From Candidatus Brocadia sp. (GTDB taxonomy: Bacteria; Planctomycetota; Brocadiia; Brocadiales; Brocadiaceae), in the NCBI GenBank assembly GCA_021646415.1, contig SOEU01000026.1, positions 1 through 39,054 on the forward strand: DNA of 39,054 bases. Direction: 5' to 3'. How positions within the stretch are numbered: position 1 is the stretch's first letter; every line of letters begins with the position of its first letter. The notes under the pieces are model-generated. The model did not search any database. It was not told where the DNA came from and saw only the letters and a program-made list of their open reading frames with translations. The position numbers and the translations under genes were made by a program. Positions 27,776 through 39,054 of the stretch are shown here, piece by piece.

Positions 27776-28156
27776 CTATTCAGGCTGTCTCTGGTTTTGC
27801 TGCTTTCGAATCAATTCCTTTATCTTATCTTTCAGTTCTTTCAAGTCTGATGACTTAATAATATAAGCATCGGCCGCCCATGACATAAAATCATCCTTGT
27901 AACTGCTATAAGCAGTGTTAATAATAATAGGTATCTTCCTATGCTCGTTTAAGATTTTCCCCATCGCCTCGATCCCGTTCATTTTAGGCATATTAATATC
28001 CATTACAATCAGATCCGGCAATTGTTCCCTTACCTTTATTATAGCCTCCAGGCCATCCTTCGCTGTAATAATGTTATATCCTTCTAATGACAATTCGTGT
28101 TTATAGAGCAAAAGTTGATTTTTATCGTCCTCTACCACGAGAATAGTTTTCATCAT
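27776..28156 (-). CDS. Single-domain response regulator (CheY-like receiver)
   Basis: A 126-residue receiver domain. The acidic pocket is VVEDD (residues 7-11), the phosphorylation site is Asp53 (LIVMDINMPKMN), and the conserved Lys lies in YIIKSSDL at about 101. There is no output domain. The start overlaps the kinase stop by 4 nt (ATGA; a second ATG is at 28153), with ggagg just upstream. Cotranscription and pairing with that kinase are therefore very likely. It probably relays phosphate to another protein or acts by protein contact. Confidence 0.94.
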   Translation of the reverse strand: MMKTILVVEDDKNQLLLYKHELSLEGYNIITAKDGLEAIIKVREQLPDLIVMDINMPKMNGIEAMGKILNEHRKIPIIINTAYSSYKDDFMSWAADAYIIKSSDLKELKDKIKELIRKQQNQRQPE

Positions 28157-29898
28157 TCGCCCTCCTTAAAAAATGCACTTGTCTTTTTTACCGGTAAGAA
28201 GACAGAAAAAGTTGTTCCCTCGTGTAATGAACTTTTCATTTTTATATAGCCTTGATGGTCTTCTACGATCTTGCGGGATACTGCCAATCCTACACCCGTC
28301 CCGTCTACCTTTGTTGTAAAAAAAGGCATAAAAATGTTTTGCATTGCTTCTATTGTCATACCCCCACCGGTATCTGATATATTAATTTTCACGTATTCAT
28401 TTTCCACCATAGTTTCTATTATCAGAGTACCGCCATCGGTCATTGACTCTACTGCGTTTTTTATAAGATTTAAAAATACTTGTTTGATTTGGGTGGGGTC
28501 TATATTAATTTTCGGTATAGTTGTATCCAATTTTTTTATCAACTGAATGCGGTTGTTTTTAAAATACGGATCCATTAAGGAGCATGTATTTTCTAATATT
28601 TCATTTATTTGAGTCAGCACTTTAACCGGCGCTTGTTCTACGGGTTTACTAAAATCCATAATATTCGCAAGGATTTTTTCTAATCGACCAACTTCTTCAA
28701 CAATAATCTCTATATTTTGTCTAGTCTGTTTATTGTTAATAGAATCCCGCAAAATCGCCCTGGCAAACCCACCTACCGTCACCAGTGGATTACGGATCTC
28801 ATGCGCAATATATGCCGCCATGTTTCCTATAACGGCAAGCCGCTCAGAACGAATTAGTCTTTCCTGAGTATCTTTGAGCTGTTGAATCTTTTCTTCGAGT
28901 TTTTCATATGCTTCTGCATTTGCAATTGCCAATGCCGCACGGTTAGCAAAAATACTTAAAAGTTCAACCTGTTCCTCTGTTATTGGTTTGTGGCTGTAAA
29001 CATTATCGGCACAAATTACTCCAATCGCTTCGTCTTTAACCACTAATGGCACACAAACAAATTCGTTCGCATTAATCATGCTTACAAATTTTTTATTACT
29101 CTTTGGATTATGAAAGGCATCCTTTTCCAAAATAGGTTTTTTTGTTTTTACACATGAAACGATGATTTCTTTTTCATCTGCTAAAGAATAAGCCATCAGT
29201 CGTGTAATCATGTGCAAGGGAGTATCCTCACGATAATGGTCTTCTGATACTTTAATAAGGTCCTCTAATTTTTCATACTTACTGGCTATTTCGCTCCATA
29301 TCTTATTTGCCTCTTCCCAACTGGAGGGACCAACGGCCATCTTACCATAGACAATATCCCGTTCCTTATCCACCAGAAAAAGCCTTGCACGGTTAAACCC
29401 CAATGCAGTTCCGGCGGTAACACAGGTCAAAATTAAGTGAAGTAACCGATCGGTTTGCAGCGGCCCCTGCATCAACTCTGCAAGTTTTCGCAATAAAGAA
29501 AGTCGATGGATCTTCTCTTCCTGCTCTGTGGTATCTATCGAGAGTTTAAGTAACTGGATAATAGAACCATTTTCGTTTCTGATAGGTAGAGAAATATTCT
29601 TAACATACTTTCTTTCTCCTTTTTCTGTAATTAACTGGATCTCACTAAACTGTTTTTTACCACTTGACAGCGTTTTAAGAACAGAACAATATTTCGTCTC
29701 CTTGCATTCACATTTATAAATCTCACGGCAATTTTTCCCTACGGGATCATCCCTTAAGTTGAGCATTTTAGAAAGGGTCTTATTAGCCCAAACAATATTC
29801 AGATCTTTATCCATTACGGACAATCCGGCATCGAGCGCATCCACGAGGTCGTTTACGACATTGTCGAATTTATCTTTTAAAATGTGTGGTAACACCAT
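28153..29898 (-). CDS. PAS-GAF sensor histidine kinase
   Basis: A kinase of 581 residues from the chosen start. It has an N-terminal PAS domain (DALDAGLSVMDKDLNIVWAN; a CECKETKYC cysteine cluster lies inside), a GAF domain in the middle and a short coiled coil. HisKA follows with His366 in YIAHEIRNPL. The HATPase domain has the N box (QVFLNLIKNAVESM), G1 (ISDTGGGM), F (FMPFFTTK) and G2 (GTGVGLAVSRKI) boxes. There are no membrane segments, so it is cytoplasmic. ATG 29898 is preferred because the PAS domain follows at once; the frame is open to ATG 29994 and ribosome sites are weak at all candidates. The clustered Cys residues could bind a metal or redox cofactor. Confidence 0.88.
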   Translation of the reverse strand: MVLPHILKDKFDNVVNDLVDALDAGLSVMDKDLNIVWANKTLSKMLNLRDDPVGKNCREIYKCECKETKYCSVLKTLSSGKKQFSEIQLITEKGERKYVKNISLPIRNENGSIIQLLKLSIDTTEQEEKIHRLSLLRKLAELMQGPLQTDRLLHLILTCVTAGTALGFNRARLFLVDKERDIVYGKMAVGPSSWEEANKIWSEIASKYEKLEDLIKVSEDHYREDTPLHMITRLMAYSLADEKEIIVSCVKTKKPILEKDAFHNPKSNKKFVSMINANEFVCVPLVVKDEAIGVICADNVYSHKPITEEQVELLSIFANRAALAIANAEAYEKLEEKIQQLKDTQERLIRSERLAVIGNMAAYIAHEIRNPLVTVGGFARAILRDSINNKQTRQNIEIIVEEVGRLEKILANIMDFSKPVEQAPVKVLTQINEILENTCSLMDPYFKNNRIQLIKKLDTTIPKINIDPTQIKQVFLNLIKNAVESMTDGGTLIIETMVENEYVKINISDTGGGMTIEAMQNIFMPFFTTKVDGTGVGLAVSRKIVEDHQGYIKMKSSLHEGTTFSVFLPVKKTSAFFKEGE

Positions 29899-30158
29899 AA
29901 TCCACTCTTCATATTTGACATGACTCATCTCATAGGTACACTTACAAGTTTTTTTATCGTCTTTTTGATTATAACATATCCCAAAAATCCGCATAAAAAA
30001 AATGAAAATTCCTATACCGTCAAATCATTCTTCTTTAGCGATTTTTTATAAAGTGCAGCTTATTCTCTTGCGCTTCTTTCCCAGGACCAATCCTGTGCCA
30101 TCCCATTTTTCATAAGATTAGTCCATTGCATCTTGTTCTTAAATAAATCCACCCGTCT

Positions 30159-31184
30159 TCACGATTGCACTACCACTGCTTTCTTTTCTATATTTACATT
30201 TCTAAGAAATTCTGCTGCATGCTCCGGTGTTACTGTATTTATGTAAAAACCACTACCCCATTCAAAACCTGCAACCCTTGTTAAACGTGGGATAATTTCG
30301 ATGTGCCAGTGATAATGTTCTATTTCTCCAAAAATAAATGGCGTTGTATGGACAATATAATTGTAAGGGGGGAACTCAAGGGATGCCTCAAGCTTAAGAA
30401 GAACTGCACGTAACACTTGTGCCAATTCTTCGATCTCCAGCTTCTGCAAATTCTCAAAATGTGAAGAATGTATTTTTGACAAAATCCATGTCTCGAAAGG
30501 GAATCGTGAGGCATACGGTGCAAAGGCAACAAAGGTATCACCTTCCAGCACGATTCGCGTCCCGGTAGATAACTCTTGTTGAACCATATCGCAAAGTAAA
30601 CAACGGCCTCTGTATTTGTAAAATTCTTCGCATCCATTCATCTCGTGCATAACTGATATCGGCACAATTGGTGTAACAATTAATTGTGAATGGGAATGTT
30701 CCAGGGTAGCGCCTGCAGCCGTACCTACATTTTTGAAAAGTAATCCGTAAATAAATCGTTTATCTTTTTTTAAATCCACGAGTCGGTCCCTGTATGTCCA
30801 CAACATCTCCTCCACTTGTTTGTTATCAAGTTCTGTCAAAGAAGTGACATGCTTCGGGCTTTCAATAATCACTTCATGCGCCCCAATACCGTTCATCGAA
30901 TCGTAGATTCCTTCACCATGTTTGTTTAAATTACCCTCAATTTTTAACGCGGGAAATTTGTTTGGTACTACCCTCACTCGCCATCCTTTTGTATTGGATT
31001 GAGTGCCTCTTTCTCTATATGCCATAATCTCTGGTGGTGTCTTGTCTTCATTTCCTTCACAAAAAGGGCAAAAACCACCTCTAATAGACTGTGGTTCCGA
31101 TTTAAAATCAGTCGGACGCATTGCCCTTTCTGTAGCAATAATTACCCAACGACCAGAAACGGGGTCTTTTCGAAGCTCCGGCAT
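30159..31184 (-). CDS. galT: Galactose-1-phosphate uridylyltransferase
   Basis: A 341-residue GalT-type protein of the HIT superfamily. It begins [20 protein letters not shown] and has a CPFCEG zinc site. The first His triad region is [14 protein letters not shown], and the second conserved block is [13 protein letters not shown]. It exchanges UMP between UDP-glucose and galactose-1-phosphate in the Leloir pathway; close relatives act on other hexose phosphates or nucleotides. ATG 31184 has ggagg 8 nt upstream. It lies 54 nt downstream of the GH57 gene on the same strand, and no galK or galE is visible. Confidence 0.92.
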
Positions 31185-31238
31185 TTTTATCGTCCTCCAT
31201 TGTCTTTTTGGAAATTAATCTTGTGGTCCCTGGCGTTG

Positions 31239-33428
31239 TTACACCTGCCACATCATTCTTTCAAAATCTTTCGATGGTACAGAAAAACAAAATACCGTCC
31301 TAAGGGGCATCCTTTGAGTAACCTCATCCTCTTTCACCAGTTCAATAAAAAATTCTACATCTATTCCCGGGAAAAGGCCTAAATCTACAAAAGGACAGGA
31401 TAATTCAATTATTTTATTCAAGGAAATACTACAAAAATCTTTCCTTTCGTAAGTATGACTTTTATTTTTTATCTTAAATCTCAATGGTTTATCGGCAAAA
31501 AAAGAAGTATATAATTGCAATTCCTCTGGCTGGACAAAAGTAATTACCAGTCTTCCCTTATTAATATATTGAGAAAACAAATCTTCGTGAAAATCTACCC
31601 TTATAAATAAAGTATCTATATCAAATCCAAAGAACACCTGCTGAATAGGTTGATCGGATGTCCTATGCATTGTGTCCATATCCCTACTTGCGCTATATTT
31701 GCCAGCATCCAGCCATTCAAAATAATTGCTCACGAGCCCGTCCAGTTTAACAGATAAAAATCTTTTTGGATATGAATATGGTTTTCGATGAGCCATCCTA
31801 GAAATAGGAACATCCAATATCCTTGGAGTATACACATTAAATAATTTATATACGTTTTTCAGGTGCAATCTAAACAAACTGTCAAATTCATCTTTATAAT
31901 GGGTAAAATGATCGTCACCAAACCACCAAAACCAATCGCTGCCTTCCGCTATGAATATTTCTTCCCACGCCTTACTCATAATAATATTCGGCGACAAAAG
32001 GGTTTTCCCTTCTGTTTGATTTACGAGAAAAGACCGCGTGTCTTCTATTAATTCCCATGCTGCATTCTTTTCTTCATGCCCAATCCATGTTGCCAGATTA
32101 TGTCCAATCCACGAACCAGGACTAATATGCTGCAATGTTTGCTCTGGGGGATACTCTTCCAAATAATCCCTAATACGGACACATTCCAGATCACTATCGT
32201 CGCTAATTGCACGATACAGTCTTCGTAAGAAATCTACACCACTGTCAGGATAATGTTCCCAGGCATTCTCTCCGTCCAATATAATCGTCACAAGGAGAGG
32301 TTTCCCATTGTTGTTATACTTCTTCAAGCTATTTATCCTGTTTATGAAATCAGACACCGCAAAATCGGCATGATATTTTGAATATTGAAATCCGATTAAA
32401 TCTGAAAGAGCATGGTCACGAAACACCATGTTTATAGTATTATTTTTTATATTGATCCGGTAAGGTTTATATAATAACTCAGGCACAACAACCTCCCCGC
32501 ACCTGTTTCTCAATACTTTATTACCCAGAGAACAAGCCAGTATCTCTTCGTCTGATGCTAACCAATGGAACCCTGCCTGAGTCAAAATGGGAATAATATC
32601 ATCACTAACAGCGCCTTCGGAAGGCCACATTCCATGTGGTTTTTGTTCAAAATATTTTTCGTAAGTTTGAACGGCTCTTTCTACCTGTATTTTTGCATCT
32701 TCAATTGCCAACAATCTTTTTTTTGGTAAAGGCAGTTTCGGTAAAATAACTTTTGCGGCTTCTTGATTACACAATAAAGGTAAAATTGGATGATAATAGG
32801 GAGAGGTAGTAACCTCTATCTGTTTCAAATCTTGTAATCGTTTATGAAGCGGAATAATTTGTCTTATTACATCTGTTTGTTTTGATAGAACTATTTCCTT
32901 ATCTTCATTTGTAAACCCTTCGCCCTTTTTTACTAATTCTGATAACGAAGGGTCTTTTTGAATTACTAACGGATTATACCACGTGAGGTTTGCCCACACC
33001 TGTAAATCCTGAAAATCCTCGTTAGAAAAAACACTGACTACATCTCGTGCCAATTTCTTTCTGAAATTCCTCTTCTTCAATAATTCTTTATACCTCGGAT
33101 AAATATCGATCATGTTTTGATGATTCGCAGAGAAGAAATTATCCAATATATAAAGTTTATTTTCCTGGTTTAAATCCTCTGCTGGTATTTTTGTTAATTT
33201 CCAAAACTGGTCATTGGCACGATTCTCCTCATAATCCTTAAGTTGCTCCAGCAGGCAGGGCACATAATTAAACGTTTGACGTATTCTGGGAAAATCTTCT
33301 AGTAATAACGCCATACCGATATAGTCTTTTATCCCATGCAGTCTCACCCATGGCATCGAGTACTCGCCGGTTAAATTGTCTTTATAATAAGGTTGGTGTT
33401 GATGCCAATAAAATGCTATCTTGATCAT
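31239..33428 (-). CDS. Glycoside hydrolase family 57 protein
   Basis: A 729-residue GH57 protein. It begins with the family start FYWHQHQPYY. The likely nucleophile is Glu271 in GMWPSEGAVSDD, and the acid/base is Asp385 in IILDGENAWE. The C-terminal 200 residues are a beta-rich extension. There is no signal peptide, so it acts in the cytoplasm. GH57 members include alpha-amylases, 4-alpha-glucanotransferases and branching enzymes; this layout resembles those annotated as alpha-amylase/alpha-mannosidase. The ATG follows the preceding stop by 2 nt without a ribosome site, suggesting translational coupling. A role in glycogen or another alpha-glucan is inferred. Confidence 0.92.
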   Translation of the reverse strand: MIKIAFYWHQHQPYYKDNLTGEYSMPWVRLHGIKDYIGMALLLEDFPRIRQTFNYVPCLLEQLKDYEENRANDQFWKLTKIPAEDLNQENKLYILDNFFSANHQNMIDIYPRYKELLKKRNFRKKLARDVVSVFSNEDFQDLQVWANLTWYNPLVIQKDPSLSELVKKGEGFTNEDKEIVLSKQTDVIRQIIPLHKRLQDLKQIEVTTSPYYHPILPLLCNQEAAKVILPKLPLPKKRLLAIEDAKIQVERAVQTYEKYFEQKPHGMWPSEGAVSDDIIPILTQAGFHWLASDEEILACSLGNKVLRNRCGEVVVPELLYKPYRINIKNNTINMVFRDHALSDLIGFQYSKYHADFAVSDFINRINSLKKYNNNGKPLLVTIILDGENAWEHYPDSGVDFLRRLYRAISDDSDLECVRIRDYLEEYPPEQTLQHISPGSWIGHNLATWIGHEEKNAAWELIEDTRSFLVNQTEGKTLLSPNIIMSKAWEEIFIAEGSDWFWWFGDDHFTHYKDEFDSLFRLHLKNVYKLFNVYTPRILDVPISRMAHRKPYSYPKRFLSVKLDGLVSNYFEWLDAGKYSASRDMDTMHRTSDQPIQQVFFGFDIDTLFIRVDFHEDLFSQYINKGRLVITFVQPEELQLYTSFFADKPLRFKIKNKSHTYERKDFCSISLNKIIELSCPFVDLGLFPGIDVEFFIELVKEDEVTQRMPLRTVFCFSVPSKDFERMMWQV

Positions 33429-33430
33429 TA

Positions 33431-34789
33431 TTATTCAAGCGTTTTAGGAAGCTTTTTTAGTGTTTCTTTGGGATGTTTAATCTTTTTCCAATATTCTGCA
33501 AATTGAAATTTTGGACTGTGTTCGCTATCATGACAAATCACACAATTTCTTTCACCTGTTGAACCGTAGTTATCATTTACACTTTTTATATGTTTACTTC
33601 CAGCACCATGACAGCTTTCGCAACCCACATCTGTTAAGTTTTGATTTTTTTCGTAATTTAAAAATCCAGAAATATCCCCGTAGCCGACCGTATGACACGT
33701 AATGCATTCAGGGTCGTATTGATGGCCAACACCAACCAGGGTATTGTATGAGGTACCGTGAGCTGTTTTGTGCCAGTGATCGTATATTATCTTGTGGCAT
33801 ATTCCACAGGCAAAACTGCCCACATAGGATAACCCCTCTGGAAGAGGTGCCTGTGGCGCCTTACTTAATAAATCTTCATCTACCAGTATTTGCTGATATT
33901 CCTTCAGTAATAAAATCATTTCTTTTGAATCTTTGTAAGTATGGCCCAATGGAATAACCTCAACGGACTTTCTTTCTACAACTTTCTTATTTATTGAATA
34001 CTGCGCAACTCCAATATGCTTTCCACCCATCCCGGGAGAAATAACTGGAGTATTATTAACATATATTGCATCCCCTGGTTCATCGCTATTGTGCCCACTT
34101 ATAATTAATCCTATTTCTGGAAAGAATTTCGCGATCTCAACAGATTCTTCCAGCGATGCATGGGAAAGTAATACTAAAAGATTTGCCTTACCATGCAACT
34201 GTTTAACCAGAGGGCTTAGTGCCTTTACTGGCTCAGATACATTCACATAATCCAACGCATACGTGCTGACGAGGGATTTAGAAAGGATACCGAAAAAGGC
34301 AATTTTGAAAAAATGCCCGGAATCAAAACATTCCTTTATGATATATTGGTTGATTTTTATCGGAAATGGAGTAACAATTTTTACGTTGCTTGAAAGAAAT
34401 TTTACTGTATTCGTTTGGGATAAAAAACTAAGTATTCGTGGACTAATTCCAATATCCTTTTCTCCAAGGTTATGCAATACATACCCCATTTCTCCCATTG
34501 CACGGCACAGAATTTCCAGTTTAATCTCATCCTGTCTACTATAACCCCCTGTAAGATCGCCTAAACTTACTGGCAAAACAATGTTCTTTTGTTTTCGAAA
34601 GAAATCTATAAACGAATATCTTCTAGAAATTCCCCCAAGTTGACCCTCATAGCAACCGCACGGTTCAAGACTCCCCAACTCCTCCCCGGAAAATAATATT
34701 GATACTTTCTCCGGAAAAGCATGGATCGAAATAGGTAGAAACATAATGAAAATGAAAAAAGCAATGAAACATCCAAGGTGCATCTTCAT
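33431..34789 (-). CDS. Exported phosphoesterase-like protein with C-terminal tetraheme cytochrome domain
   Basis: A 452-residue protein with a signal peptide (about 1-25). Residues about 28-300 have a 5'-nucleotidase/metallophosphoesterase layout: the LEPCGCYEGQLGGISRR motif, VSLGDLTGG, LLSHAS and ISGHNSDEP. The usual D-x-H and GNHE/D metal ligands are replaced (SGEELG, NLGEKDIG), so phosphatase activity is doubtful. The C-terminus has four heme sites: CGICH (328), CITCH (362), CESCH (390) and CVICH (416). These resemble the cytochrome c554 group. The combination is known in other bacteria with many cytochromes; the function is unknown. It lies 17 nt after the DUF1573 gene and 2 nt before the GH57 gene. 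Confidence 0.87.
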   Translation of the reverse strand: MKMHLGCFIAFFIFIMFLPISIHAFPEKVSILFSGEELGSLEPCGCYEGQLGGISRRYSFIDFFRKQKNIVLPVSLGDLTGGYSRQDEIKLEILCRAMGEMGYVLHNLGEKDIGISPRILSFLSQTNTVKFLSSNVKIVTPFPIKINQYIIKECFDSGHFFKIAFFGILSKSLVSTYALDYVNVSEPVKALSPLVKQLHGKANLLVLLSHASLEESVEIAKFFPEIGLIISGHNSDEPGDAIYVNNTPVISPGMGGKHIGVAQYSINKKVVERKSVEVIPLGHTYKDSKEMILLLKEYQQILVDEDLLSKAPQAPLPEGLSYVGSFACGICHKIIYDHWHKTAHGTSYNTLVGVGHQYDPECITCHTVGYGDISGFLNYEKNQNLTDVGCESCHGAGSKHIKSVNDNYGSTGERNCVICHDSEHSPKFQFAEYWKKIKHPKETLKKLPKTLE

Positions 34790-34806
34790 AAAGAACTGAT
34801 ACTTAA

Positions 34807-35823
34807 TTACCCCCTTACTTCTCCATTGATAGGGATAGTAATAACCGGTTGAATAGCACTGTTTGTGTATATCCTTAAACTACTTGTGATTTTCCCGGCC
34901 ATTATATCTTTACCCAGCTTAATGTCTATTTTCTTAGTACTATTATTTAAGTCAGACACTGCATAATTTACTAGACCTGGATCAGCTTCAATCTTTTCTA
35001 TTTTCACATCTTTGTTCACAAAATTAACGATAACCGTTCTTTCTGTATCTTGATTTTTTTTAACACTACCAAAAGTTACTATTTCCGGATAAAAAGTAAC
35101 ATCCCCAACAACCTCTCCGGAAAACGGGATATCTATCCTTTCCTGTCTGTTGCTAGTTGTATAGAAAAATACAATTCCATTAAATTTGCCAATGAAATCA
35201 TATTTTTCAATAGAAACTTGATAACTATGGACATTGTTATCTGCTGTTTTATTTTGTGTGAGTGTAATATATGGATTAGGTGACTCTACCTTCTTTACTT
35301 CAATTTTCAATTCAGGTATTGTTTTTATCTCTATATTCCTGGTACAAGAATCACCTTTTCTTATGATACCAAAATTAATTTGCTTTGGGCTAACACGGAC
35401 TTCTTCAATTATTTCTCCGGTGATCGTTAATTTATATGTTGAATTTTTAGGATCATTTGAGTTCACCGTAACTGATTTCGTTACCCTGCCAACAAAACGG
35501 CCTGGATTAAATTTAATCTGTACCTCTCCTTCTTCGCCTGTGAGCAAATTACTCTTAGATACCAATGCGGCAGTACATCCACATGATGATTTAACACTGG
35601 TTACAATCAACTCATCAGACCCAAGATTTTTAAATTTGAATCCATGTTTCACAATCTCGCCCATATAAATTTTACCAAAATCATATATTTTCTCTTCAAA
35701 AACTATTTTAGGCTTTTTCAAAATCTTTTCATTATCTATTATATCTGCCATTAAGGCATTACAGCATGTTATAGACATGAATAACAGTTGTACTATGATT
35801 AAACACATTTTCATTTTTTTCAT
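34807..35823 (-). CDS. Exported DUF1573 protein
   Basis: A 338-residue protein with a signal peptide (about 1-24). It has an N-terminal DUF1573 domain (IYDFGKIYMGEIVKHGFKF, SSCGCTAALV, GRVTKSVTVNSNDP) and two further Ig-like beta domains with the same NFGIIRKG / TFGSVKKN beginnings. DUF1573 proteins are extracytoplasmic and of unknown function. The CGC pair in SSCGCT is the only Cys cluster in the mature protein. The start has aaaggag about 11 nt upstream. It is the first gene of a probable four-gene operon running to galT. Confidence 0.88.
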   Translation of the reverse strand: MKKMKMCLIIVQLLFMSITCCNALMADIIDNEKILKKPKIVFEEKIYDFGKIYMGEIVKHGFKFKNLGSDELIVTSVKSSCGCTAALVSKSNLLTGEEGEVQIKFNPGRFVGRVTKSVTVNSNDPKNSTYKLTITGEIIEEVRVSPKQINFGIIRKGDSCTRNIEIKTIPELKIEVKKVESPNPYITLTQNKTADNNVHSYQVSIEKYDFIGKFNGIVFFYTTSNRQERIDIPFSGEVVGDVTFYPEIVTFGSVKKNQDTERTVIVNFVNKDVKIEKIEADPGLVNYAVSDLNNSTKKIDIKLGKDIMAGKITSSLRIYTNSAIQPVITIPINGEVRG

Positions 35824-36004: not shown

Positions 36005-36057
36005 TAAAAACACGAAGAGCTGGGTGGTGGGGAGACACCCACGCGACCCAGCTCTTC
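36005..36057 (-). terminator. Strong terminator after hzsA
   Basis: gaagagctgggt (36014-36025) pairs perfectly with acccagctcttc (36046-36057), with an inner gtggg/cccac stem. Read on the minus strand it is followed by gtgttttt. It lies about 60 nt beyond the hzsA stop and separates the hzs transcript from the DUF1573 operon. Confidence 0.9.
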
Positions 36058-36118
36058 ATCGTTTTACTTCCCATTCCCTTGCCTTCGTACAGACAGGCTC
36101 AGGGATTTACCTCAGGCA

Positions 36119-38548
36119 TTATCTTGCATGATAGCCAGGATAAAAATCAGGACCCTGGATGTTATCCCACTGCGCCCCGATGTCTATCCACTCGACAAAC
36201 AAATACCTCTCATCCTGCGTGAGGAATTTGTCATGCATTACCCTTCCCTCAATCGGGAATACATTCTCTCTCGGTGCGAACTGACTTAAGGCCTCCTCAT
36301 ACAGCCTCCAGATCAACAAGCTGTTGATGGCTGATGATGGATGAACATACTTACCACCAAGGTTGGGATCCTTACCCCTCTGTGGTTCAAGCAAGCTATT
36401 GTATGAACGGCTGAATGCTGCAACACCATCAACACTCGCCAGCTCTCCACCGCCACTTAAGTCCGGAGGAAGATTCGCATTGTGACATCCGGCGCACTTC
36501 GCATCGATGATCGGCTGAATATCCCTGCGGAAATCCACCGTCCTCCTCTTCTCATCCGTTAACCCTTCCACCGGCTGTGATGTCGTACCTGATGGACCTC
36601 CATAGTACACGTCCGATGGTACCACAACGTCTTCACCATGCTTTACTCCCTGATAGATACCATTCTTATCAAGCTTCAGGTATGCAAATGCAAATGGTGA
36701 ATCATAGTGACTCCTGTCATCATACCACCAGTTGTACAACGCCTTTGTATGCTGGTTCTGGAATGCCCTGCCCCTGTAAGAGCCATCATGACATCCACTG
36801 CAAATCCTGCCATGATACGGCCTCAGATACGCCCATGACAACCCGCTCTGTACTGCCATCCCCCTGTCATCCAATATCTGAATGTAGTATGGCGTGTCTG
36901 CCGTCTGTGACGTTACCACTGAACCATCATCCTCTACATACTGATACCCGATGATCCTCCTCTGCTGGAATGCAGTTCCTGAGTTGCTGCTTGACCTGCA
37001 GCCTCCCAAAAGGTGGCTTCCAACTCCCGCCTTGAACCTGCTTTCATCTGGCTCCACACACTGCACACCCTGGACTATCCTCACCGCCTTCACATCTCCC
37101 GGCTTCATTTCCTTCGCCCTCTCGCTGGGATAGGGACCAACCTTGGTGTCCGTCAAGGTCGTGTCAAAACAAATCCATGTACCCCAGGAATGTGGATACC
37201 CTTCCACCTTCACCTGGTCAAACGGCTGATAGGTCACCGTCGTTACGCCAAAGTTCTTCCCGGCTGTAAAGGTGTTGATCCACCTTGGCTTGTACTTAAT
37301 ATACACAGGGGCCGGCTGATGATCGTTCCACTCCGGATCATTGTATACCAATTCCCCTGCCTTGCCATTCTTGCAGTCAAACCAATAGATGCCAAAATCG
37401 CCTCTCTCTGCATAGGATACCAGCATCCTGTCATCCGGAAGCGGGTAAGGACTCCTGTACAATCCGCCATCGTCCTTCGTCAGCCTCTCGTAGGTCTTGT
37501 TGTACGGAGCATCCCAACTGACTGCTGCCAGCTGGCCAACACCCCAGTTCATATAGGGTGACTCTACATATACCAATTTCCTGTCACCAAAGGTGATCTT
37601 CGCCTGAGACCTTCCACATGCCCCACCAATTTCATCCGGACAGTTACCATAAATCGCCCTTGGATATGCACCATCCCAGTTGTCTACTTCCAGTAACACC
37701 CGGCCTTTCCCTTCTGCCCTGCTCCCATTGGCCTGGACGCTGGAAAACAGGATGTTTCCATCCGGCGTAAGTGCAGGATCATAGTTCGAACTCACGTTGT
37801 AGGTGATCTGGTCTATCGTGGTATTCAGGTGCGGAAACTCTATACCTGACAGCACGTGACCGGTAATCCTCTCCGTTACATGGCCTCCCTGCGTATCCAA
37901 CCTGAAAAGATTATACGCATACGGATTATGGAACTCGTCCTTTACACCATCCGGAGAACCGGCGAAGATAATGAACCCCGTCTTCTCTACCGTCCCTCTC
38001 TCTTTCCAGTCTCCTTCAAAATACCTGTCTCTCCATATGATGCGACCCTGACCCTCCTCAATACTACCAGCCGCATAATAGATCGGACTGCGGCACGTGC
38101 CTTTATAATCGGTCATCTGCCTTATCCCGCTGCCATCTATATTCATCTCCCATATCTGGCATCCGCCGCCCTTCTTGTGAATCCCGGCAAAAGTGAACTT
38201 CTTCCCATCCCAGTACGTGCATGGATCAAAGGCTGACGCAAAATCATTGGTCAGTACCTTTAATTCCTTCGTCTTTAAATTGAATGATACAATCCGGCTA
38301 CCCTCTGACACATAGTGCGGATAGTTCTGATACGGATCACCCTTTGCCGTCCTGGGTGACTGGGTAAACAATATCACATCCACAGGACCCTGCACCTCTT
38401 TCGACATCCCGCAATAATCCGTCCATAAGGCCTTTCCCTGCTTCGAACCACCTGTCATTACCTGGTTCGATGCAAAGATATCCCCACAGACCAACGCACC
38501 GGCTATCAACGCCGATGCCATTACCCCTCCTATTATCCTCTTACTCAT
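36119..38548 (-). CDS. hzsA: Hydrazine synthase subunit alpha
   Basis: An 809-residue exported protein whose sequence matches, as I remember it, the hydrazine synthase alpha subunit of Kuenenia stuttgartiensis (kuste2861), including the length. A signal peptide (about 1-27) precedes a propeller-containing region and two heme sites: CSGCH (583-587) and CAGCH (685-689). Residues reported as special in the Kuenenia structure fall at the same numbers here: Cys303 and His587 (zinc) and Tyr591 (ligand of heme alpha-I). The enzyme makes hydrazine from NO and ammonium inside the anammoxosome. ATG 38548 is chosen because aaaggagaagg precedes it and the signal peptide follows; the frame is open 16 codons further. 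The gene is richer in G+C than its neighbours. Confidence 0.97.
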   Translation of the reverse strand: MSKRIIGGVMASALIAGALVCGDIFASNQVMTGGSKQGKALWTDYCGMSKEVQGPVDVILFTQSPRTAKGDPYQNYPHYVSEGSRIVSFNLKTKELKVLTNDFASAFDPCTYWDGKKFTFAGIHKKGGGCQIWEMNIDGSGIRQMTDYKGTCRSPIYYAAGSIEEGQGRIIWRDRYFEGDWKERGTVEKTGFIIFAGSPDGVKDEFHNPYAYNLFRLDTQGGHVTERITGHVLSGIEFPHLNTTIDQITYNVSSNYDPALTPDGNILFSSVQANGSRAEGKGRVLLEVDNWDGAYPRAIYGNCPDEIGGACGRSQAKITFGDRKLVYVESPYMNWGVGQLAAVSWDAPYNKTYERLTKDDGGLYRSPYPLPDDRMLVSYAERGDFGIYWFDCKNGKAGELVYNDPEWNDHQPAPVYIKYKPRWINTFTAGKNFGVTTVTYQPFDQVKVEGYPHSWGTWICFDTTLTDTKVGPYPSERAKEMKPGDVKAVRIVQGVQCVEPDESRFKAGVGSHLLGGCRSSSNSGTAFQQRRIIGYQYVEDDGSVVTSQTADTPYYIQILDDRGMAVQSGLSWAYLRPYHGRICSGCHDGSYRGRAFQNQHTKALYNWWYDDRSHYDSPFAFAYLKLDKNGIYQGVKHGEDVVVPSDVYYGGPSGTTSQPVEGLTDEKRRTVDFRRDIQPIIDAKCAGCHNANLPPDLSGGGELASVDGVAAFSRSYNSLLEPQRGKDPNLGGKYVHPSSAINSLLIWRLYEEALSQFAPRENVFPIEGRVMHDKFLTQDERYLFVEWIDIGAQWDNIQGPDFYPGYHAR

Positions 38549-38623
38549 CTGTTGGCCTTCTCCTTTCACTTTCTTAAAATATTCCACTTGAACCAATTCT
38601 TTTCTCTTCCCATACTACCCTAC

Positions 38624-39054
38624 TTATAGCGCCTTCAGGAACTCCACCAAATCCTGCAAATCCTGAGCACTCAGGTGTGACGTCCTTCCATGCATGTCCT
38701 TATCATTTACCGTGTTGTTGATCGTGTCAATCAACGTCCTGGCGCTTCCGTCATGGAAATACGTACCTGAAGCATAGATGTCTCTCAGGGTCGGTGTATC
38801 AAACTCCTTCACCAGGTCTAACCCAATGATCGGCGTATCGCTCTCCTCTCCATAGGGATCCTCACCGGCATTCAATGCCTGCATGTTAAATACCTTACCC
38901 GGTGTTGACCTGAAACCCTTCACTCCTACACGACCGGTTCCCACATCATGGGTCTGTGCATCGCTAAATAAGGCCTTCGGATCCATTGCATCACCAGGAT
39001 GACACTCCGCACACCCTACATTCGGATCATTAAATAACTTCTCACCCCTCTTTG
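38624..39054 (-). CDS. hzsC: Hydrazine synthase CCP/MauG-like (gamma) subunit, C-terminal part, cut by window end
   Basis: The open frame continues past the last base of the window. The visible 142 residues include the heme site CAECH near the window end and the MauG/cytochrome c peroxidase C-terminal features GRVGVKGFRSTPGKVFN, FDTPTLRDIYASGTYFHDGS and LSAQDLQDLVEFLKAL. They match what I recall of the hydrazine synthase gamma subunit (kuste2859). Only 75 nt separate it from hzsA, so both are probably on one transcript. Whether this is a separate hzsC or the end of a beta-gamma fusion cannot be seen from here. Confidence 0.9.
   Translation of the reverse strand, partial: KRGEKLFNDPNVGCAECHPGDAMDPKALFSDAQTHDVGTGRVGVKGFRSTPGKVFNMQALNAGEDPYGEESDTPIIGLDLVKEFDTPTLRDIYASGTYFHDGSARTLIDTINNTVNDKDMHGRTSHLSAQDLQDLVEFLKAL

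Follow-up and report, generated by a model that had tools for sequence, protein, structure and literature searches.

A glycogen gene cluster headed by two exported redox-type proteins in anammox bacteria

Anammox bacteria are slow growers that rely on stores to survive starvation. Glycogen storage is established in these organisms (van Niftrik, 2008, as cited in PMC7438415), and a full set of glycogen enzymes has been noted for Jettenia (PMC6828613). The closest known systems are bacterial glycogen operons of the ADP-glucose type, which join glgC and glgA to a gene for a GH57 protein. The cluster described here resembles them in its glgA, glgC and GH57 genes, accompanied in some relatives by glgB, glgP and malQ. 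It differs in being headed by genes for two exported redox-type proteins, in carrying an ADP-glucose-phosphorylase-like 'galT' and a kinase/receiver pair, and, in the genome analysed, in having lost glgA.

Both exported proteins have described relatives. UshA-like proteins with a CxU motif and DUF1573 proteins with UGC or UxC are selenoprotein families (PMC13188914; PMC2398784; PMC9312934), and in both families the selenocysteine forms occur at the C-x-C motif (PMC13188914; PMC2398784). The UshA-like protein studied here shares with family NF041198 (CxU/PCGU) a degenerate UshA domain, the PCGC motif and C-terminal c554-type hemes, but it does not reach the family cut-off (236.6 bits versus 275; its relatives score 249-255) and has cysteine rather than selenocysteine. 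Similarly, the DUF1573 protein shares the Ig-like DUF1573 domain and a CGC motif with the OS_HP2 family (NF041425), but it scores under the cut-off (86.7 bits versus 100), is of the cysteine form and contains extra Ig-like stretches. The best solved full-length relative of 'galT' is an Arabidopsis protein (PDB 1Z84), which we take to be ADP-glucose phosphorylase, although its PDB title reads GalT-like only. The two share the active-site motif HSHSQ, but 'galT' is bacterial and operon-encoded. Our literature search found no paper that treats anammox and DUF1573 together and no description of the operon.

We assign a probability of roughly 70% to the view that the locus forms the 5′ portion of an operon for glycogen turnover combined with an exported redox module, the two being co-expressed in a shared energy or starvation state.

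Organization and conservation of the cluster

The window, a contig of 39,054 nt, belongs to a 3.81 Mb anammox genome (Candidatus Brocadia sp.), and its right end carries hydrazine synthase genes. An earlier note on this DNA described four same-strand genes with gaps of 17, 2 and 54 nt, linked as an operon and probably coupled. The ORF listing reproduces these coordinates and gaps exactly in 5′ to 3′ gene order on the minus strand, and profile searches of the window assign the Pfam families DUF1573, Cytochrome_C554 (four CXXCH motifs), GH57 and both halves of GalT. The four-gene order is correct, but the boundaries were drawn too short, as a two-component pair (27776-29994) also belongs to the cluster and a glgA relic lies at 30042-30151. 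The features are:

27776..28156, minus strand: single-domain response regulator, overlapping the kinase by 4 nt
28153..29994, minus strand: sensor histidine kinase (PAS-GAF-HisKA-HATPase) by profile match, kept downstream of galT/glgA across the order
30042..30151, minus strand: relic of glgA (glycogen synthase), 110 bp with 94% identity to the 3′ end of the gene in a relative, G017
30159..31184, minus strand: 'galT', probably ADP-glucose phosphorylase from its similarity to 1Z84
31239..33428, minus strand: GH57 alpha-glucan hydrolase, amylopullulanase-like (PF03065)
33431..34789, minus strand: UshA-like PCGC protein with a cytochrome c554-type tetraheme domain and a signal peptide (NF041198, PF13435)
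34807..35823, minus strand: DUF1573 protein (PF07610) with a signal peptide, Ig-like, single SCGCT motif
36030..36077, minus strand: intrinsic terminator hairpin between hzsA and DUF1573 (stem of 12-13 bp, then GTTTTT; fold z -5.4)
36119..38596, minus strand: hzsA, hydrazine synthase alpha (NF052339, 1606 bits), an adjacent, separate unit

The GH57 gene starts two bases past the stop codon of the UshA-like gene, in the context TTGAATAATAATG, and has no Shine-Dalgarno sequence, as the earlier note had stated; such sequences are present at galT (GGAGG) and DUF1573 (GGAG). In relatives the UshA-GH57 junction measures -4, -1 or 2 nt, and its frequent overlap fits translational coupling. Overlapping or near-overlapping junctions are also found in relatives at galT/glgA, galT/kinase and regulator/glgC.

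Our survey covered 62 genomes of the order, 59 of which have the tetraheme gene at the search threshold (weak cytochrome-only matches included), and 52 loci were read for gene order. Within the family of the window (f1) the order is DUF1573, UshA-like tetraheme gene, GH57 at some loci, galT, glgA, kinase and regulator, followed in some cases by glgC; the gene 3′ of galT in relatives is identified as glgA by TIGR02095 (580.9 bits). GH57 is missing or decayed at 12 of 28 same-family loci, and remnants of it between UshA and galT at L042 (G021) and L044 (G015) represent recent loss. In families f3 and f4, tandem genes for exported PQQ/BamB-like beta-propellers lie divergently upstream of DUF1573 (for example, L069:6660-7805).

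At 27/27 loci of f1, counted among relatives with the window left out, the tetraheme gene has a glycogen gene no more than 3 kb away. The same holds, in differing arrangements, for 15 of the 22 loci in two other anammox families (4/8 in f3 and 11/14 in f4), and for 0/2 loci in f2. Linkage of the DUF1573-UshA pair to glycogen genes far exceeds chance, for which a rough estimate, taking a 4 Mb genome with about a dozen glycogen genes, gives a few per cent, the genomes not being independent. The operon-like linkage and coupling proposed earlier are real: comparison across anammox genomes, a check that the earlier note had itself suggested, finds the order kept, with the glycogen linkage at every same-family locus, and UshA/GH57 junctions overlap in relatives. 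The cytoplasmic genes are linked as a glycogen operon. The earlier note knew of no pathway joining the four genes, yet GH57 and 'galT', together with glgA and glgC in relatives, make up a glycogen module, which places two of the four in one ordinary pathway.

It is possible, if somewhat doubtful, that two unrelated modules came to lie side by side in the anammox ancestor and that vertical inheritance or a shared promoter has held them there, with no functional link. The exported pair occurs apart from glycogen genes in f2, in part of f3 and in nearly all non-anammox relatives, and so can do without them; conversely, GH57-galT-glgA occur without the pair in three genomes (G005, G006 and G061). 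Against a mere accident of descent, the linkage has survived rearrangement: most layouts are co-directional (UshA before galT), but some f4 loci have the pair convergent with a different cluster, glgA-glgP-malQ-GH57-glgB. Junctions that overlap by 1 or 4 nt also argue against it, as does a Thermoguttaceae locus (L099:8103-13268) in which DUF1573, the UshA-like tetraheme gene and glgC are consecutive, with glgC following the pair after 635 bp, possibly an independent glycogen link outside the order. The arrangement is old, since G011, from another family, has all genes in the same order. One genome (G016) is without all five genes; we rejected this co-loss as a sign of shared function, because the genes are contiguous and a single deletion or missing contig suffices to explain it.

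The exported DUF1573 and UshA-like proteins

DUF1573 lies directly upstream of the tetraheme gene at 46 of the 52 loci, and the two are also adjacent in several genomes outside the order, including members of the Planctomycetota and Armatimonadota. In G061 (family f5, L059:2925-4970) they form a natural fusion of 681 aa that joins a DUF1573 domain with CDC to a UshA-like tetraheme protein. A joint alignment of this fusion with the separate partners misplaced the DUF1573 CGC onto the UshA PCGC and was discarded. The DUF1573 protein matches PF07610 with 97.8 bits (gathering score 26.1), and its CGC is kept by all full-length anammox orthologs; no solved structure matched it at E values up to 0.1.

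The tetraheme assignment of the earlier note is borne out by four CXXCH motifs and a Cytochrome_C554 match (PF13435, 48.9 bits; gathering score 20.8) in the UshA-like protein. The PCGC motif and all four CXXCH are invariant in an alignment of 24 anammox proteins. The N-terminal domain matches the fold of E. coli UshA (E 6e-21) and also that of SoxB; the heme domain was modelled poorly, with pLDDT below 50.

The description of this protein as phosphoesterase-like fares less well, as alignment and distant homologs indicate that the UshA-like domain is without most catalytic ligands. Specifically, DxH is changed to GEE, GNHE to GE(K)D, and GHxH has lost its last His, so that of the 5′-nucleotidase/phosphoesterase ligands only GD, H210 and the first His of GHxH are retained, the DxH and NH pair being gone. 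The protein might still be a hydrolase, either a phosphoesterase or a SoxB-like thiosulfohydrolase, that is fed or gated by its hemes and serves, for example, to recycle an exported nucleotide sugar. The shared fold speaks for such a role, and D78, H210, H233, E36 and E110 are invariant in the anammox proteins, which leaves room for a surviving metal site and, with it, some hydrolase activity. We nevertheless consider it unlikely, given the altered motifs and a score of 36.4 bits with the SoxB thiosulfohydrolase model TIGR04486 (cut-off 550). Moreover, D78 and H210 each persist in only 9 of 46 distant homologs (Planctomycetota, Armatimonadota, Verrucomicrobiota, Myxococcota and other groups), whereas about 43 of these have PCGC and 46 have all four CXXCH, a count biased for the one heme motif that the scan patterns favour, PCGC and the other three hemes being mostly unselected.

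Selenocysteine replacing the same cysteine is a usual sign of redox chemistry. Because both families include selenoproteins, a heme-wired thiol redox pair is our best guess for the DUF1573 and UshA-like PCGC tetraheme proteins, and from residue conservation, the natural fusion and family membership we infer that they would act as such a pair outside the cytoplasm. A role for selenocysteine itself in anammox bacteria was rejected; TGA codons in some relatives lie outside PCGC, which reads Cys.

Cytoplasmic enzymes and flanking genes

Despite its name, 'galT' probably does not encode a galactose enzyme. Its product matches 1Z84 over residues 2-332 with an E value of 4e-76, compared with 6e-26 for E. 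coli GalT, and its HSHSQ motif aligns with the same motif in 1Z84; the E. coli GalT motif is HPHGQ. HSHSQ/HTH[ST]Q is kept in 35 'galT' orthologs. Of two GalT equivalog models, TIGR00209 scores above its cut-off (126.1; cut-off 102.1) and NF008724 below (148.9; cut-off 448). Since ADP-glucose is the substrate of GlgA, an identity as ADP-glucose phosphorylase would fit the neighbouring genes, and we consider it the probable one.

The GH57 protein matches PF03065 with 237.5 bits and its nearest solved structure at 2.5e-78. The solved GH57 proteins closest to it form a group with lengths near 480 aa, with which it has DGEN.WE in common, and WPSE and DGENAWE motifs are present in 16/16 full-length relatives. 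Branching-enzyme models score far under their cut-offs (NF041133, 43.7 versus 1000; NF041566, 18.7 versus 920). By homology, GH57, 'galT' and GlgA would all function in glycogen turnover.

Relatives have an intact glgA in the cluster, and the window genome has only the 110-bp relic. DNA comparison with G017 finds galT intact to its stop codon, then 6 nt and the final 110 bp of glgA, with an early stop; 1,334 bp are missing just after galT. In the window genome two glgC genes remain and no second close GlgA was found, and the genome seems to be without a GlgA-type glycogen synthase, although the deletion may be an assembly error. With glgA deleted, the operon there is unable to carry out the whole pathway. 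Beyond the relic, homology of the kinase ORF to G017 begins at 29943; its start (29851-29994) is probably too long, with the likely ATG near 29898.

On the other side, about 300 nt lie between the end of hzsA and DUF1573. Of 13 same-family hzsA-DUF1573 spacers, 12 contain a strong hairpin with a T-rich tail; it was identified by folding, as a promoter/terminator consensus scan of the window performed at shuffle level (24 versus 24.0 promoters) and missed this long-loop hairpin. Complete genomes of relatives have a second hzs copy elsewhere, and two near-identical hzs copies have been published (PMC12758564). This second copy and the conserved terminator mark the glycogen cluster as a separate unit, which in the window's family is probably placed beside a duplicated hzs copy. 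In the hzs stretch (36119-39054) the contig ends inside hzsC, and a single hzsA is assembled versus two near-identical ones in complete relatives; the copies have probably been collapsed in this assembly. That the cluster serves hydrazine synthase, in assembly or electron supply, is very improbable even though most same-family genomes that include this flank have hzsA 5′ of DUF1573, because the terminator intervenes and the neighbour is not conserved (it is missing in genus g6 and other anammox families), and moreover the adjacent hzs is one of two near-identical copies (PMC12758564) and the pair is found in bacteria outside the order.

Proposed role of the cluster

In the glycogen operon with an exported redox module that we favour, GH57 would debranch or hydrolyse alpha-glucan, the 'galT' product would interconvert ADP-glucose and glucose-1-phosphate, and GlgA, in relatives that retain it, would elongate glycogen; the kinase/response-regulator pair and often glgC follow. 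The UshA-like domain would have given up phosphoesterase function, its PCGC cysteines and four-heme c554-type wire serving instead in electron transfer of a thiol/disulfide or related kind, partnered by the CGC-bearing DUF1573 protein. Our guess is that redox module and glycogen genes are co-expressed as both serve the same energy or starvation state. A more specific proposal, that the exported pair forms a physical unit and couples the redox state of the extracytoplasmic cytochrome pool to glycogen storage through the kinase/receiver pair, is improbable on present evidence; if true, it would represent a previously undescribed way for respiratory redox state to control carbon storage.

Four seemingly odd genes thus become one testable unit, an anammox glycogen operon led by an exported multiheme redox pair, and two likely misannotations, 'galT' and 'phosphoesterase', are corrected. 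At least one anammox lineage appears to be without its glycogen synthase. How storage is tied to the cytochrome-rich energy metabolism of these bacteria matters in practice for wastewater treatment and the nitrogen cycle.
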